This document shows, piece after piece, positions 3,676 to 59,590 of a stretch of 64,000 nt of DNA (the stretch's first letter is position 1; the number at the start of each line of letters is the position of its first letter). Source of the DNA: Ramlibacter paludis (GTDB lineage Bacteria > Pseudomonadota > Gammaproteobacteria > Burkholderiales > Burkholderiaceae_C); assembly GCF_022012305.1 (NCBI RefSeq), contig NZ_JAKLTM010000001.1, forward strand, positions 310,001 through 374,000, given 5' to 3'. A program made the translations under genes and the position numbers. The notes under the pieces were generated by a model. It worked only from the letters and a program-made list of their open reading frames with translations. It was not told where the DNA came from and made no database searches.

Positions 3676-4635
3676 TCACTCGATGCGGATGTTGGCCTCG
3701 CGGATCAGCGTACCCCATTTCGCATGCTCGGCGCGGATGTAGGCGGCGAACTGCTGCGCCGTGCCGGGCGTGGGCTCGCTGCCTTCCTGCGCCAGCTTCT
3801 CCTTGACCTCCGGCCGCGCCAGCACCTTCACCGTTTCCGCATTGATGCGCGCGACGATGTCGGCCGGCATGCCCGCCGGGCCTACCAGGCCCAGCCAGGT
3901 GGTGGCGTCGAAACCGGGATAGCCATGTTCGGCAATGGCGGGCACGTTGGGCAGCGCACCGATGCGCTTGGCCGAGCTCACCGCCAGCGCGCGGATCTTG
4001 CCCGCGGTGAGCTGCGGCATCACCGACACCGTGCTGCCGAAGTAGGTTTCCACCGTGCCACCCAGCAGGTCGGTCATGGCCGGCCCGGCGCCCTTGTACG
4101 GCACCTGCAGCACCTGGAGGTTGGCGCGCCGCTCCAGCATCTCGCCGGCCAGGTGGCCCACGGTGCCGTTGCCGGCCTGGGCCACGCCGATCTTGCGCGT
4201 CTTGGCGGCCGCCACGAAATCGGCAAAGGTCTTGAAGGGCGAGTCGGGGCGCACCACCAGCACCACCGGCTGTTCCGACACCGACACGATGGGCGTCAGG
4301 TCCTTGAGCGGATCGAAAGGCATCTTCGCGTACAGCGCCGGATTGATGGCGAGGTTGGCTGCCTGCCCCATGCCGATGGTGTAGCCGTCGGGCGCGGCCT
4401 TGGCCACCGCGTCCAGGCCGATGTTGCCGCCGGCGCCGGGCTTGTTGTCGATGACGATGGTCCAGCCCAGCGCCGTGGTGAGCTTCTCCGCGATCAGCCG
4501 GGAGGTGGCGTCGGTGCCGCCGCCGGGCGGGAAAGGCACCACCAGGCGGATGGGCCGCGCCGGATAGCCGCCCTGCGCGAAGGCCGGGGCCAGGGTGGCG
4601 GCGGCTGCGCCGGCGAGGAATTGGCGTCTCTGCAT
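3676..4635 (-). CDS. Bug/TctC-family periplasmic solute-binding protein
   Basis: 319 residues. It starts 'MQRRQFLAGAAAATLAPAFA', a signal peptide with an RR pair that could be Tat-like, then 'YPARPIRLVVPFPPGGGTD' and 'GWTIVIDNKPGAGG', the canonical Bug ligand-loop motifs, and 'QVPYKGAGPA'. It lies 32 bases upstream of the second Bug gene and 23 bases downstream of the RraA-like gene, with its own aaggagac ribosome site. Ligand unknown; by family it is a carboxylic acid, and by context probably the hydroxy acid consumed by this operon. Two receptors for one operon suggests either two related substrates or one receptor serving a sensory role. Confidence 0.95.
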   Translation of the reverse strand: MQRRQFLAGAAAATLAPAFAQGGYPARPIRLVVPFPPGGGTDATSRLIAEKLTTALGWTIVIDNKPGAGGNIGLDAVAKAAPDGYTIGMGQAANLAINPALYAKMPFDPLKDLTPIVSVSEQPVVLVVRPDSPFKTFADFVAAAKTRKIGVAQAGNGTVGHLAGEMLERRANLQVLQVPYKGAGPAMTDLLGGTVETYFGSTVSVMPQLTAGKIRALAVSSAKRIGALPNVPAIAEHGYPGFDATTWLGLVGPAGMPADIVARINAETVKVLARPEVKEKLAQEGSEPTPGTAQQFAAYIRAEHAKWGTLIREANIRIE

Positions 4636-27073: not shown

Positions 27074-27110
27074 GCCGGATTGCTGGAAGGCGATCCGGCT
27101 TCTTTTTTTT
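27074..27110 (+). terminator. Intrinsic terminator of the TauD-BKACE-Bug operon
   Basis: Stem gccggat (27074-27080) pairs with atccggc (27093-27099), followed by a run ending in eight T (27103-27110). It lies 38 bases past the Bug stop. Confidence 0.85.
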
Positions 27111-27122
27111 GCTTCCGGGGCG

Positions 27123-27409
27123 CGTCGCGGCGGGCGGTGCGCGGTGCAGGCCCGCTGGGGCGTCGGTCGGCGGCTTCGCGCGCCGACTCCCCTGAAAGGC
27201 CGGTCCCGCCGGCGTCGCAAGGCACAACTCGTTGAGTTTTTGTCCGCTGCGCGGCCAAAAACTCCACTCAAACAGGTGCCTTGTCAGCATGAAACATACG
27301 CGCGGCTCGATTCGCTGGCGCTCTCGTAGCCGCGCTCCGCCGGCGGGACCGGCCTTTCAGGCGACTGCCCCTTCATGCGGGCCTGCACCGCACACCGCCC
27401 GCCGCGACG
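27123..27409. repeat. Four-tier nested palindrome between convergent operons
   Basis: Outer arms 27123-27155 and 27377-27409 match over 33 bases with one mismatch (C27140 opposite A27392). Inside are 24-base perfect arms (27191-27214 / 27338-27361), then caaggcac/gtgccttg (27218-27225 / 27276-27283), then gagtttttg/caaaaactc (27234-27242 / 27256-27264). The left spacer has its own hairpin, gtcggcg/cgccgac. The whole lies between the two facing terminators at 27074-27110 and 27434-27458. No credible gene is present. The remaining bases of the 443-base gap hold nothing I recognise. Confidence 0.85.
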
Positions 27410-27433
27410 TTAGGCAGTCGGTCGAATCCCGGC

Positions 27434-34028: not shown

Positions 34029-35261
34029 TTGAAAATCTTCTACGGCTGGCGCATCGTGGCAGCGAGCGTCGGCATCCAGACACTGCATGCCTGCCTGCTG
34101 CTGCAGGCTTTCGGCGCCTACGTCGCCGTGCTATCGGAGGAACAGGGCTGGAGCAAGACCGCCTTGTCCGGCGCCGCCGCGCTGCTGTCGGTCGAAGGCG
34201 CCTTGCTCGGTCCGCTGCTCGGCTACCTGTCCGATCGCGTGGGACCGCGGGCGATGGTGCGCACCGGCGTCGTGCTCGTGTCCCTCGGTTTCGTCGCCCT
34301 GAGCCAGACGCGGACCATCACCCATTTCTACGGCGCGGTGCTGCTGCTGGCGGTCGCGGGCAGTTTCTGCGGCTACTTCCCCTTGTCGGTGGCCGTGGTG
34401 CACTGGTTCCGCAAACGCCGCGCCCGGGCCCTGTCGCTCACGAGCCTGGGACTCGCTTTCGGCGGGCTGCTGGTGCCGGCGGTGAGCTGGGTGATGCAGA
34501 CCTACGGCTGGCGGACGATGGCGCTGATCTCCGCGGGAATGTGGCTGGTGCTGGGGTCCTTGCTGGCGTCGGTGGTGCGCGGCAAACCGGCGGACATCGG
34601 CGAGACGGTGGATGGGGAGCCGATCGCGCCGCCGGAAGTCGTGGGTGCCACTGCAGGAGCCACCGTTTCCGCCGCGGCGCCCGAACGCGCCTTCACTGCG
34701 GCGCAGGCGCTGCGCACGCGCGCGTTCTGGTTCCTGGGCCTGGGCCACGCGATCGCACTGCTCGCGGTGACCGCGGTCAACGTGCATGCGATCTCGCACA
34801 TCAAGGAAGGCCTGGGCTACTCACTGGCGCAGGCGGCCTTCGTCATCACGCTGATGACGGTGTCGCAAGGCTGCGGCGTGTTGCTGGGCGCGGCGGTCGG
34901 CGACCGCTGGGACAAGCGCCGGGTGGCGGCCGGCTGCATGCTGTCGCACGCGTTGGGACTGTTGATGCTGACCTATGCGTCGCACCCGGCGATGCTGGGC
35001 GCGTTCGCCGTGCTGCACGGCGTGGCCTGGGGCGTGCGCGGGCCCTTCATGCAGGCGCTGCGGGCCGATTACTTCGGGCTGCAGGCGATCGGGATGATCC
35101 TGGGGCTGTCGGCGATCCTGATTTCGCTGGGGCAGGTCGGGGGGCCGTTGATTGCTGGGTCCTTGGCCGACCTGACGGGGGACTATCGGGTTGGATTCAC
35201 CCTGCTCGCATTGATCGTGGGGTCCGGGTCTCTGTTATTCCTGATGGCGCGCAAGCCCTGA
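34029..35261 (+). CDS. MFS transporter, OFA/monocarboxylate-type
   Basis: 410 residues from a TTG; an in-frame stop at 34017-34019 and no ATG before the conserved 'FYGWRIVAASVGIQTLHACL' force this start. Twelve helices are evident. 'YGWRIV' at the N terminus, 'GYLSDRVGPRAMVRTG' in loop 2-3 and 'YFPLSVAVVHWFRKRRARALSLTSLG' in helices 4-5 are typical of the OFA/MCT branch, which imports oxalate, monocarboxylates or related acids. It stands alone, followed after 22 bases by the first copy of the covarying hairpin family. Confidence 0.9.
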   Translation: MKIFYGWRIVAASVGIQTLHACLLLQAFGAYVAVLSEEQGWSKTALSGAAALLSVEGALLGPLLGYLSDRVGPRAMVRTGVVLVSLGFVALSQTRTITHFYGAVLLLAVAGSFCGYFPLSVAVVHWFRKRRARALSLTSLGLAFGGLLVPAVSWVMQTYGWRTMALISAGMWLVLGSLLASVVRGKPADIGETVDGEPIAPPEVVGATAGATVSAAAPERAFTAAQALRTRAFWFLGLGHAIALLAVTAVNVHAISHIKEGLGYSLAQAAFVITLMTVSQGCGVLLGAAVGDRWDKRRVAAGCMLSHALGLLMLTYASHPAMLGAFAVLHGVAWGVRGPFMQALRADYFGLQAIGMILGLSAILISLGQVGGPLIAGSLADLTGDYRVGFTLLALIVGSGSLLFLMARKP

Positions 35262-35282
35262 TTCTTTGCTCCCCACCCGCGC

Positions 35283-35388
35283 CAGGACGGGGCAGCCCTC
35301 CTTGGCGAATGTCCCCCGCGCGGGCCTCGCCTCCGGCTGCGACCCGCTCCTCCTCCTTAACTTCGCCAAGGAGGACTGCCCCGCCCTG
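35283..35388. repeat. Covarying hairpin element, copy A
   Basis: Arms 35283-35309 and 35362-35388 pair over 27 positions with two mismatches (A87.C384 and C96.A375, numbering within 35283-35388); on the minus strand both become G.U, giving full pairing. The 52-base interval holds an inner stem gcggg/cccgc and the tract gctcctcctccttaac. About 45 further bases (to about 35432) resemble the flank of copy C. It lies between convergent genes, 22 bases after the MFS stop. Copies B and C are at 58753-58865 and 58941-59052. Confidence 0.85.
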
Positions 35389-35456
35389 ACGCTGCTCCCC
35401 TGCGGGATCGCAGCGCCGTTCCCTCCCGTGCCCACCCTGGGCCCGACCGGAGGGCG

Positions 35457-36767
35457 TTACCTGGGAGGCACCCGCGCAGACAAAGGCTGCGGCACGTAAT
35501 CCGTACGGAACCGACACCCCTTCCCGTACGTCACCTCCAACTCGGCACACCGCGCCGCCACCAACGAAGGCGTGGGCTTCGAACCCCCGCGCGCCCACTC
35601 GGACAACACCGCCAGCAGCGCCGGATACACCGGCTCGCTCAAGTAGCTGTGCGTGTTGTCGGACGTGAAGGTCTGCACGAGATGCCCCGCCGTCCCCGCC
35701 CGCTCCATCGTGCGGCGGAAGCTGTCGTCCATCTCGACGAAGGCCGTCGGGTCGTCGATGCCGTGCACGGTCAGCACGGGGACGGGAATCCGCCCGTTCG
35801 GATCCGTGTCGGCGGCAAAGGCCGCAACAGCCTGCGGGTCGGCCGCATAGCGTTGCACGGCCCGGTCGAGCGCGACGTCGGCGTACTGCACGCCGACATT
35901 GCCGAATACATTGCGGCCGCCGGTGCGCAGTTGCGCGATGTCCTGGAAGTGAAAAGTCGCCCAGTTCAAATGGCCGGCGATCGAACTCGCCGGGATCTTC
36001 ACCAGGTCCACGATCGTCTGCACCTTGCGCTGCTGTTCCGCCGTCCGTTGCTTGTCCGTCCCCAGGCAAGATTCGAAGCGCTGGCGCAAATCCGCCGCCG
36101 TCATCCTGGCGCCGGCCGGCAATCCCATCCACAGCGGGTACTGCGTTTCGTCGGGACGCGGATGGTTGCCGCACAGCGCCTGGTAGATCACGCGCAGGTC
36201 CAGCCGGAAGTCGTAGGCCTTGCTGCCGCCCGCGAGCACGCCGCTCGTGAGCAGCACGGCGTCGTAAGGCTTGCCCTCGGTGTACGTCGACGCGCCCACC
36301 GCCGCGACGCTCGCGCCCCACGATTGGCCGTGCAGGATCGTCATCTTCGGCTTGGCGACCTGCGCCACGAAGATGCGGCGCAGGCGCTCGGTGTCCTCCG
36401 CGGCCGCATGCACGGCCACCCCACCCTGGCGGAAGCTGGAGCCGGCCCAGGCATAGCCGGCCTTCACCACCACCGCCCAGCGCTGCAGGTCTTCGACCGT
36501 GCGCTCCAGCTTCGGTGCGCCGAGCGTGGGCCCGCCGTGCGCGTGCAGCACCAGCGTGCCGTTCCACTGCGGCGGGATCGCCACCAGGTAGAACGCGCCG
36601 GCGGAGTCCTGGCCGTGCAGGCAGCGGGCGGCGGCGGGCAGTTCCGCCGGACAAGCCATCGCCCGGGGGGCGGCTTCAGTGACGACGGGAGTGGATGCGG
36701 AAATGGGGGCGCGACCGGCGCAGGCGGACAAGGCCAACGCGGCAAGGAGGGCAAACGGGCGGATCAT
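35457..36767 (-). CDS. Lipoprotein alpha/beta hydrolase
   Basis: 436 residues from the ATG at 36767; an in-frame GTG at 36782 would only lengthen the signal peptide. The lipobox 'LALSACAG' puts the acylated Cys near residue 16. The fold is alpha/beta hydrolase: oxyanion region 'LVLHAHGGPTLG', nucleophile Ser in 'ILHGQSWGASVAAVG' (GQSWG), acid in 'VLTVHGIDDPTAF' and base His in 'SDNTHSYL'. Catalytic residues look intact. The substrate is unknown; long insertions around the cap resemble secreted tannase/feruloyl-esterase-like enzymes. Location is periplasmic membrane surface. It is convergent with the MFS gene. Confidence 0.82.
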   Translation of the reverse strand: MIRPFALLAALALSACAGRAPISASTPVVTEAAPRAMACPAELPAAARCLHGQDSAGAFYLVAIPPQWNGTLVLHAHGGPTLGAPKLERTVEDLQRWAVVVKAGYAWAGSSFRQGGVAVHAAAEDTERLRRIFVAQVAKPKMTILHGQSWGASVAAVGASTYTEGKPYDAVLLTSGVLAGGSKAYDFRLDLRVIYQALCGNHPRPDETQYPLWMGLPAGARMTAADLRQRFESCLGTDKQRTAEQQRKVQTIVDLVKIPASSIAGHLNWATFHFQDIAQLRTGGRNVFGNVGVQYADVALDRAVQRYAADPQAVAAFAADTDPNGRIPVPVLTVHGIDDPTAFVEMDDSFRRTMERAGTAGHLVQTFTSDNTHSYLSEPVYPALLAVLSEWARGGSKPTPSLVAARCAELEVTYGKGCRFRTDYVPQPLSARVPPR

Positions 36768-36856
36768 CGTTGGTTCATGCACGGAAAAAACAGCAAGGGG
36801 CGAACGATAAGGACGCGGCGCCCCCAGGTCAATCCCAGGCGGTCGCCGCTAGGGCC

Positions 36857-58502: not shown

Positions 58503-58709
58503 ATGTCGAACCACGTCTACAAGACCCTCGAACTCACCGGCTCGTCGAGCACGGGCATCGAAGACGCCGTCAACACCGCCGTCGCCAAGGCCGCCGAGAC
58601 CGTGCGCAACATGCAGTGGTTCAAGGTGTCGGAAACGCGCGGCCACATCCGCGACGGCAAGGTCGCGTACTGGCAGGTGACGATCCAGGTGGGGTTCACG
58701 TTGGAATGA
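58503..58709 (+). CDS. Dodecin, flavin-storage protein
   Basis: 68 residues, the full usual length. '[20 protein letters not shown]' begins the strand, then '[20 protein letters not shown]' and '[12 protein letters not shown]'. Trp39-like aromatic residues in 'MQWFKV' stack on flavins in the dodecameric hollow sphere, which stores and protects FMN/FAD. An aggagcagcc ribosome site precedes the ATG. It is a monocistronic unit by spacing; followed after 43 bases by hairpin copy B. Confidence 0.93.
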
Positions 58710-58752
58710 AGGTAATCAACATTTGAGCCGCTGAAACGGTGGCCCCCAACCC

Positions 58753-58865
58753 GGCCCAGGATGGGGCAGCCCGTTTCAGCGAATGTCCCCCGCGCGGACG
58801 ACGCCTCCGGCTTAGTCCGCTCCTCCTCCTTAACTTCGCTGAAACGGGCTACCCCACCCTGGGCC
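58753..58865. repeat. Covarying hairpin element, copy B
   Basis: Arms 58753-58783 and 58835-58865 (31 bases) pair except for A61.C857 and C67.A851 (numbered by last three digits within 58753-58865); on the minus strand both are G.U. Loop 58784-58834 keeps tgtcccccgcgcgg and gctcctcctccttaac, with inner stem gcgga/tccgc where copy A has gcggg/cccgc. The outer stem near the loop differs from copies A and C at five or more pairs, each compensated. Confidence 0.85.
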
Positions 58866-58940
58866 TGCAGCGCGCGGGACCGGGCTTCGCGTCCTTCGGT
58901 AGCCAACGGGGAACGGCTCCGCGACTCCGCAGGGGAGCAG

Positions 58941-59052
58941 CGCCAGGGCGAGGCAGTCCTCCCTGGCGAAGTTAAGGGGGAGGAGCGGGTCGCAGCCGGA
59001 GGCGAGGCCCGCGCGGGGGACATTCGCCAGGGAGGGCTGCCTCGTCCTGGCG
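58941..59052. repeat. Covarying hairpin element, copy C (inverted)
   Basis: Arms 58941-58970 and 59023-59052 pair at all 30 positions on the plus strand with two G.U. The loop is the reverse complement of copy A's with one change. It lies 25 bases after the DUF1697 stop in that gene's reading direction. The 75 bases between B and C hold remnants of the outer flank (ccttcggtagccaac) and no gene. Confidence 0.85.
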
Positions 59053-59077
59053 CGGGTGGAGAGCAGCGATCAACGAG

Positions 59078-59590
59078 TCAGACATTCGCCGCCTTCCGCA
59101 CCGTGTCCCACGTCCGCGTCGTCACGTCCTTGCCGAACGTTTTCTCGATCAACGCCATGAACACCGGCCCCTTGGGACCAGGTACATAAGCGCTGAACAA
59201 CTCGCGCCCCTGCAGGGCAAGAATGCGCGCGCCATCGAGTTCCACCGGCAGCTTCGGCGGATCGTCGGGCTCCGCCTGCAGGAAGGTCACCACGCGTTTC
59301 GCGTCCGCCGCAAGCTTGAAGCGCGCAAACGGATCGGCGGCGAGCAGTGCCAGCAGTTCCTCCTGCGGCCGGACGAACGCGACGAAGCCCTGGTCCAGGT
59401 GCTGCTCCATCGCCGCTTCGGCCTTCTTGCGCACCGTGCGCTCCGCGCCGCTGGCATCGAAGGCGACGTTGCCGCTGGAGAGCAGCGTCTTCACCTCCGT
59501 GAAGCACGCGGCTTCGAAAGCCCGCTTCAACTCGGGCATCTTGCAGTTCATGGGGCTCACGCCCCGCAGGAAGGCGACAAAGCGTTTCAT
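59078..59590 (-). CDS. DUF1697 protein
   Basis: 170 residues. 'RFVAFLRGVSPMNCKMPELK' opens the family, then 'TLLSSGNVAFDAS', 'RKKAEAAMEQHLDQGFVAFV', and 'YVPGPKGPVFMALIEKTFGKDVTTRTWDT' split in the middle of the last block. The family has two ferredoxin-like alpha/beta domains and unknown function. Full length for the family. The gene is single; downstream on its strand is hairpin copy C. Confidence 0.9.
   Translation of the reverse strand: MKRFVAFLRGVSPMNCKMPELKRAFEAACFTEVKTLLSSGNVAFDASGAERTVRKKAEAAMEQHLDQGFVAFVRPQEELLALLAADPFARFKLAADAKRVVTFLQAEPDDPPKLPVELDGARILALQGRELFSAYVPGPKGPVFMALIEKTFGKDVTTRTWDTVRKAANV

Follow-up and report, generated by a model that had tools for sequence, protein, structure and literature searches.

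Paired, strand-defined hairpins in a Ramlibacter genome belong to a large repeat family with features of a miniature mobile element

Do the three long hairpins found in a 64,000-nt stretch of the Ramlibacter paludis genome (the window) represent a transcribed structure, or are they parts of a mobile DNA repeat? The first-pass annotation had argued for selection on a transcript rather than a simple MITE. All three hairpins are located where it had placed them. Hairpin A (35283..35388, minus strand) is single, and hairpins B (58753..58865, minus) and C (58941..59052, plus) are the left and right members of an outward-facing pair. The covariance model described below matches A, a C-type member, at 35265-35397 (97 bits), B at 58739-58870 (108 bits) and C at 58935-59067 (91.3 bits); a 64-nt stretch (58871..58934) separates the model matches of B and C. 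Apart from these scores of 91-108 bits nothing in the window exceeds 50 bits, and the matches at 50, 36 and 35 bits come from the opposite strands of the three hairpins. Six matches at E <= 0.001 were found in the whole 5 Mb genome, and they are read as the three window copies, each on both strands.

The loop of the family consists of AAGGAGGAG, a variable inner hairpin and GGGGGACA; it is purine-rich and nearly fixed. In A this core was found by the loop pattern at 35310..35358 (minus), and in C the internal loop is the variant AAGGGGGAG/GGGGGACA, with G opposite G at its centre where the family norm is A.G. The outer and inner stems covary among A, B and C as the annotation had described. 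A and C are 93% identical across 157 nt in inverted orientation, part of the spacer included, and therefore cannot serve as independent witnesses. RNA folds of the sense strand reach -89.7 (A, minus), -86.0 (B, minus) and -92.9 kcal/mol (C, plus), and those of the opposite strand -68.2, -73.9 and -75.7 kcal/mol, the stem being opened there by A.C mismatches. For each of the six folds none of 200 shuffles was equal (z-scores from -6.8 to -9.8). The fuller pairing proposed for the minus strand of A and B and the plus strand of C is thus borne out, with near-complete stems on these strands and weaker folds opposite. The statement that all mismatches are A.C in one orientation holds for those of the transition type (seven wobbles in the stated sense, none in the other); a strand-blind alignment of the arms also gave three transversion-type mismatches, so the claim has to be limited to transitions.

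Hairpin A lies between two convergent genes, one to its left on the plus strand (34029..35261), presumably a major-facilitator transporter, and one on the minus strand (35457..36782) which by eye we take to be an alpha/beta hydrolase; both are supported by gene calls and open reading frames. The B/C pair is likewise flanked by convergent genes: a called plus-strand gene on the left (58503..58709), presumably coding for a dodecin, and a minus-strand gene on the right (59078..59590, gene call and open reading frame) whose product we take to resemble DUF1697 by eye. The relative G001 lacks the pair, and its two convergent neighbour genes nearly touch. The missing segment comprises B, the spacer, C and the tails and covers approximately 58709..59087, ends not fixed by alignment. 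Beside A, a putative remnant of a lost B-type partner was seen by eye at 35431..35443; this stretch, cccaccctgggcc, is identical to 13 nt within the foot of B.

A different repeat is located at 27110-27420 of the window. It is a nested inverted repeat of about 300 bp which by eye lies between two terminator-like hairpins and ends near gttaggc, reminiscent of an integron core site. It occurs at four loci of the same genome, this one included, in 20 long matches in G021 and also in G001 and G014, and is present in 9 of the 37 genomes searched.

With blastn the window hairpins matched 10 of 61 genomes, all of the same genus. The search of related genomes with a covariance model, which the first-pass annotation had suggested, revealed a large family: the model (length 122, built from an alignment of 25 elements) found it in 30 of 60 Ramlibacter genomes, with up to 53 matches per genome spanning about 93-149 nt each. 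From 213 model matches 158 elements were kept, the other 55 being read as overlapping opposite-strand duplicates of better matches. A second, wider set of 136 matches gave 131 elements after the same removal, all 136 being used in the covariation count; seven duplicate named loci were excluded from the gene-context, strand-by-context, pair and loop-centre counts. The loop pattern was found in 29 of 59 Ramlibacter genomes, so that the distribution is patchy within the genus, and in 131 of 299 genomes (75 of 141 genera) of the taxonomic family of the host, where the reversed-pattern control gave no hits. A sample of the class contained four positives among 369 genomes (the host genome itself, a second member of its family, and two genomes that share another family), and the reversed control had one hit in each of four genomes. 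Exact loop patterns miss variants: in G026 the model gives 33 matches where the pattern gives none.

In a collection of named genomes at least 119 stretches matched the loop pattern. Among the matches listed, the hosts include Ramlibacter, Variovorax, Rhodoferax, Hydrogenophaga, Polaromonas and Pseudorhodoferax; further hosts are Stenotrophomonas, Lysobacter, Luteimonas, Thermomonas and one Xanthomonas MAG, and the outliers are one Stagnimonas MAG (L234) and two contigs (L209, L252) of a record titled Bacillus subtilis SK7B5. Since this record carries the hairpin family, its assembly is probably contaminated or misnamed. Hairpin A had no match in plasmid or phage collections, and the loop pattern had none in viral contigs. 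Rfam 15 gave no match at gathering score anywhere in the window; at seven other loci searched at E <= 1, the matches on the hairpins were eukaryotic microRNA families far below gathering score. A literature search, to which most subscription papers were closed, found no paper containing six core sequences of the family and, among the titles listed, none dealing with it. The hairpins thus appear to be a large, undescribed family of DNA repeats in two bacterial groups.

The stems of the family change in step. In the 25 aligned elements both sides change at 28 of 40 pairs, and in the 136 matches of the wider set at 38 of 40, a count equalled in none of 500 shuffles. Significance was judged against shuffles and slid controls. 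In the 136 matches 93.1% of the pairing cells are filled by pairs; shuffling lowers this to 61.2% and sliding to 44.3% or less. The covariation score is 0.652 against 0.148 (shuffled) and at most 0.089 (slid); this alignment is fitted to the model and includes five opposite-strand matches, and kinship can beat shuffles without structure. A family with many unpaired arms was also looked for: only 2 of 146 scored elements have less than 75% of their stem matched, and the two lowest-matched of 83 elements chosen by the loop pattern overlap re-paired arms. Neither search weakened the covariation claimed for the hairpins. A separate idea, that the stem of B acts as a guide, came from CCGTTTCAGCG, which recurs over 11 nt in the flank of B itself; in 60 elements long stem-flank matches derive from the partner hairpin, except for B and L048 (12 nt), and the idea was therefore rejected as a general rule.

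In contrast to the stems, the loop hardly varies. Among the 158 elements found by the model, which were not chosen by their loop, GGGGGACA is present near the loop in 142 and AAGGAGGA in 123. When 18 Lysobacteraceae elements were compared with 179 others, the arms were 45-46% identical and the two loop halves 93% and 99%, the latter values being inflated because the loci were found by an exact loop pattern and scored only with a loop expression match. The centre of the GGNGG/GGNGG internal loop is A.G in 242 of 276 distinct elements, G.A in 10 and C.G in 10, with 10 more unscored; A.C, G.C, A.A and G.G occur once each, the last being copy C of the window. The G.A centres come from G026 (six), G023 (two), G032 (one) and one Variovorax, and the C.G centres from G035 (nine) and G021 (one). 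From the sequence, a purine-purine pair or a two-tetrad quadruplex at the loop centre would fit this pattern.

The second property claimed for the hairpins, a strand defined by G.U pairs, is real across the family. Counted on arms aligned without regard to strand, wobbles in the sense orientation outnumber the others 199:25 in 146 scored of the 158 elements, 239:28 in 125 scored of the 131 elements of the second set, and 429:54 over all distinct elements (272 scored of 277). By genome, 17 of 19 in the first set agree with the sense bias; G022 is reversed and one genome has no wobbles. A set of 83 elements outside Ramlibacter was chosen by the loop pattern alone to exclude a bias arising from the model, and it gave 187:47, or 60 elements against 8. 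The bias is shared by both members of a pair (73:8 for left and 60:8 for right members of 44 pairs) though they lie on opposite strands, and a bias imposed on the locus by replication or by transcription from neighbours therefore cannot be its whole cause.

This bias also bears on the possibility that the hairpins are an ordinary MITE in which replicative template switching from arm to arm keeps the palindromes perfect, with no selection on the fold. Long palindromes, inverted ends and many copies would all be expected of such an element, C-to-T bias of an exposed sense strand could yield part of the wobble excess, and at a Stenotrophomonas-type locus common to two genomes (L207/L238) the stems were indeed altered on both arms in place. 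However, arm correction should be blind to the difference between G.T and A.C, which is at odds with the ratio of 429:54. Nor would it explain why the centre of the loop covaries from A.G to G.A, or why the loop is kept across two families despite differing stems, at loci that were found by their loop. We consider this explanation improbable.

Selection on a structured RNA acting from these loci is a rival that we regard as rather unlikely. The RNA could take the form of two outward small RNAs originating within the pair, or of 3'-UTR structures binding a protein such as CsrA/RsmA, which is linked to GGA motifs. Repeated GGA motifs are present, and G.U tolerance, compensatory changes, a near-fixed loop and A.G/G.A exchange are typical of RNA. 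The location behind genes also suits it: according to a home-made gene caller, 74 of 89 pair units lie between two called genes, in a convergent (37), tandem (31) or divergent (6) context, and the 15 unscored units are at an edge or overlap a gene call. Against it, in tandem-gene contexts the wobble bias is as strong in copies oriented against the neighbour genes (82:13) as in co-oriented ones (76:7), so that read-through mRNA provides no explanation, and single hairpins between tandem genes have no preferred orientation (19 co-oriented, 17 counter-oriented). The scan for sigma-70-type sites found no such promoter motif around the window copies, and neither A nor B/C has a T-run terminator motif after the stem. 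Variable spacers between genomes and patchy presence inside one genus also argue against an RNA; a bidirectional internal promoter would still be compatible with one. Taken with the MITE-like traits of the family (many copies, patchiness, inverted ends and an empty site), these observations do not support the preference of the first-pass annotation for a transcribed structure over a MITE. On the explanation favoured below, strong covariation and a G.U-defined strand need not imply a functional transcript.

The arrangement seen in B and C is the rule among adjacent copies of the family. After removal of five pairs counted twice, 89 of 91 distinct adjacent pairs are oriented outward (46/46 in the first set, 48/50 in the second), the exceptions being two pairs of same-strand neighbours (L191, L258). 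Hand counts among the matches listed in the pattern scans agree: 28 of 31 close neighbours are outward at the family level (exceptions in G164 and, twice, in G165) and three of four at the class level (exception in G650). The spacers between pair members measure 8 to 186 nt and differ from genome to genome. Outside any near pair are 66 of the 158 model matches, some of which lie in extracted stretches too short to reveal a partner.

Five wider outward pairs (0.5-1.3 kb; G008, G072, G078) enclose small open frames, which may be cargo; the enclosed genes of four of them share no common family. Two of the enclosed frames (L062 1371-2102 and L063 1226-1675) have no family match, a third (L064 1134-1742) partially matches the candidate defence family PDC-S14 and carries a DUF4357 domain, and a further small frame is enclosed at L329 669-1208. 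Gaps of 3 kb in G003, with ordinary-looking genes, and of 4.2 kb in G026 were not taken as pairs.

Some individual loci are also of note. In L270 the core motif occurs four times in about 0.5 kb, its orientation alternating from one to the next, possibly as a tandem array of pairs. At L200 (3744-4446) a hairpin pair adjoins the RNase P RNA gene (Rfam match at 4093-4446, minus). In L103 (G023) and L147 (G035) a pair with unrelated stems occupies the same gene junction, between genes that we take by eye to be DegP-like and TatC-like, as a result of either deep in-place divergence or repeated insertion.

The family has the behaviour of a miniature mobile element, as seen in its copy number, its patchiness, its inverted ends and the empty site of a relative. 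The G023 unit extends by eye past the hairpins as far as GGTTCTTCGCCGAT on one side and its inverted counterpart ATCGGCGAAGAACC on the other, and 12 of the 17 units inspected there abut, by eye, an intrinsic terminator; many units of this genome miss one hairpin through internal deletion, and hairpin A of the window may have lost its partner in the same way. In Variovorax the outward tails on both sides mostly end, by eye, in CCCTGAACA or a near-variant, and in G035 several tails contain TTCTGCCGCCCAG. Terminal inverted repeats were thus read in three lineages, and the window copies are without defined ends. Inspection of 15 pairs by eye, and comparison with the empty site of G001, showed no clear target-site duplication.

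If the unit moves, an enzyme may be sought either next to the hairpins or among known partners of similar repeats. Among 464 proteins encoded near hairpins no transposase-like gene recurs; only common paralogous families do, presumably ABC transporters and dehydrogenases as named by eye. The known candidate is a Y1 (RAYT-like) transposase serving a REP/REPIN family. The inverted doublets, extragenic location and complementary changes recall REPs as described in PMC2817692 and PMC3116915, and a Y1 gene is present in 58 of 60 Ramlibacter genomes and in 31 of 33 hairpin-rich genomes. However, among the Ramlibacter genomes the gene occurs in 30 of 30 with model matches and in 28 of 30 without, and being near-universal either way it does not discriminate between them; of the 60, 54 have exactly one Y1_Tnp match and four have two, which leaves two without any. 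No Y1 match was obtained in G103 or G331, both of them hairpin-rich. Neither the model nor the loop pattern places a hairpin beside the gene at any of 58 distinct Y1 loci (e.g., L083 1016-1756); these loci are the sum of 32 and 29 with three shared, one 11.7-bit match at E 2.3 being uncounted, and 50 of them lie in genomes carrying the hairpin family. Of 289 model matches, a few of them counted twice, 20 show a GT(A/G)G head between positions -12 and +10 relative to their start. Mobilisation by RAYT is not supported, and we judge a Y1-served REPIN family very improbable.

The explanation that we favour, with evenly divided confidence, is that a miniature, non-autonomous mobile element of REPIN-like kind carries the hairpins as its two ends, each recognised as a folded single strand. 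Its unit would consist of a left-facing hairpin, a short spacer and a right-facing hairpin. Each hairpin would be read 5' to 3' outward, placing the 3' end of the folded sense strand at the outer border. The recognition would be the work of a putative enzyme or binding protein acting in trans, which would read the shape of the folded strand, a long stem with the purine internal loop GGNGG/GGNGG, rather than the sequence of the stem. Such recognition would account for stems that drift yet keep pairing, for a near-constant loop in two distant families, and for the tolerance of G.T(U) together with intolerance of A.C. The element would settle behind genes and, in one genome, often beside intrinsic terminators. 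Against it weigh the lack of a mobilising gene among the neighbours and of a clear target-site duplication, the few same-orientation neighbours, the many single copies, the undefined ends of the window copies, and the absence of matches in plasmids, phages and viral contigs. We infer movement as a unit and the existence of the enzyme from these traits of the pairs, and a folded strand of DNA appears more likely than one of RNA.

More tentatively, and with a good deal of doubt, we speculate that the family is a distinct class of mobile elements, mainly of Comamonadaceae-type and Lysobacteraceae genomes, with free-stem hairpin ends, a purine core and an enzyme outside the known transposase families. 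Its ends might be recognised on opposite strands via GGNGG/GGNGG, with the covarying A.G/G.A centre and possibly a two-tetrad quadruplex, a suggestion that we hold equally doubtful. If the favoured explanation is true, well over a hundred of the genomes sampled, from common soil and plant bacteria, contain a repeat system that has gone unrecognised and in which a folded single strand is what is conserved. The many natural variants of one fold, with its covarying non-Watson-Crick core, could then serve to test structure-directed recognition and might lead to a new enzyme.

Several known systems can be compared with the family. Intrinsic terminators resemble it in being hairpins behind genes, often between convergent genes, whereas the stems of the window hairpins are much longer, enclose a conserved inner loop and are not followed by a T-run. 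Like a MITE, the element is short, non-coding and present in many copies, with inverted ends in three lineages and an empty site; it differs in having a large strand-defined hairpin at each end, and neither a parent transposon, among the genes near the hairpins, nor a clear target duplication was found. REPs, as described in PMC2817692, PMC3116915 and PMC3733652, are characterised by a GT(A/G)G head, by a position flanking the RAYT genes that belong to them and by inverted doublets, and a published abstract gives their palindromes as 20-40 bp. The hairpins share with REPINs and BIMEs the extragenic location, many copies, inverted palindrome doublets and complementary mutations, but their matches span about 93-149 nt, they have a purine internal loop instead of the GT(A/G)G head, none lies beside the gene at the 58 Y1 loci and the stem sequence is not conserved. 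Since the doublet is present, while the head is rare and no hairpin flanks these RAYT-like genes, we consider the family REPIN-like in its working rather than a member of the REPIN family. Recognition of integron attC sites depends on the shape into which one strand folds, the stem sequence being variable. By resemblance, the recognition proposed for the hairpins is of the same kind, with the difference that in the hairpins the conserved part is the internal loop and the sites come in outward pairs.
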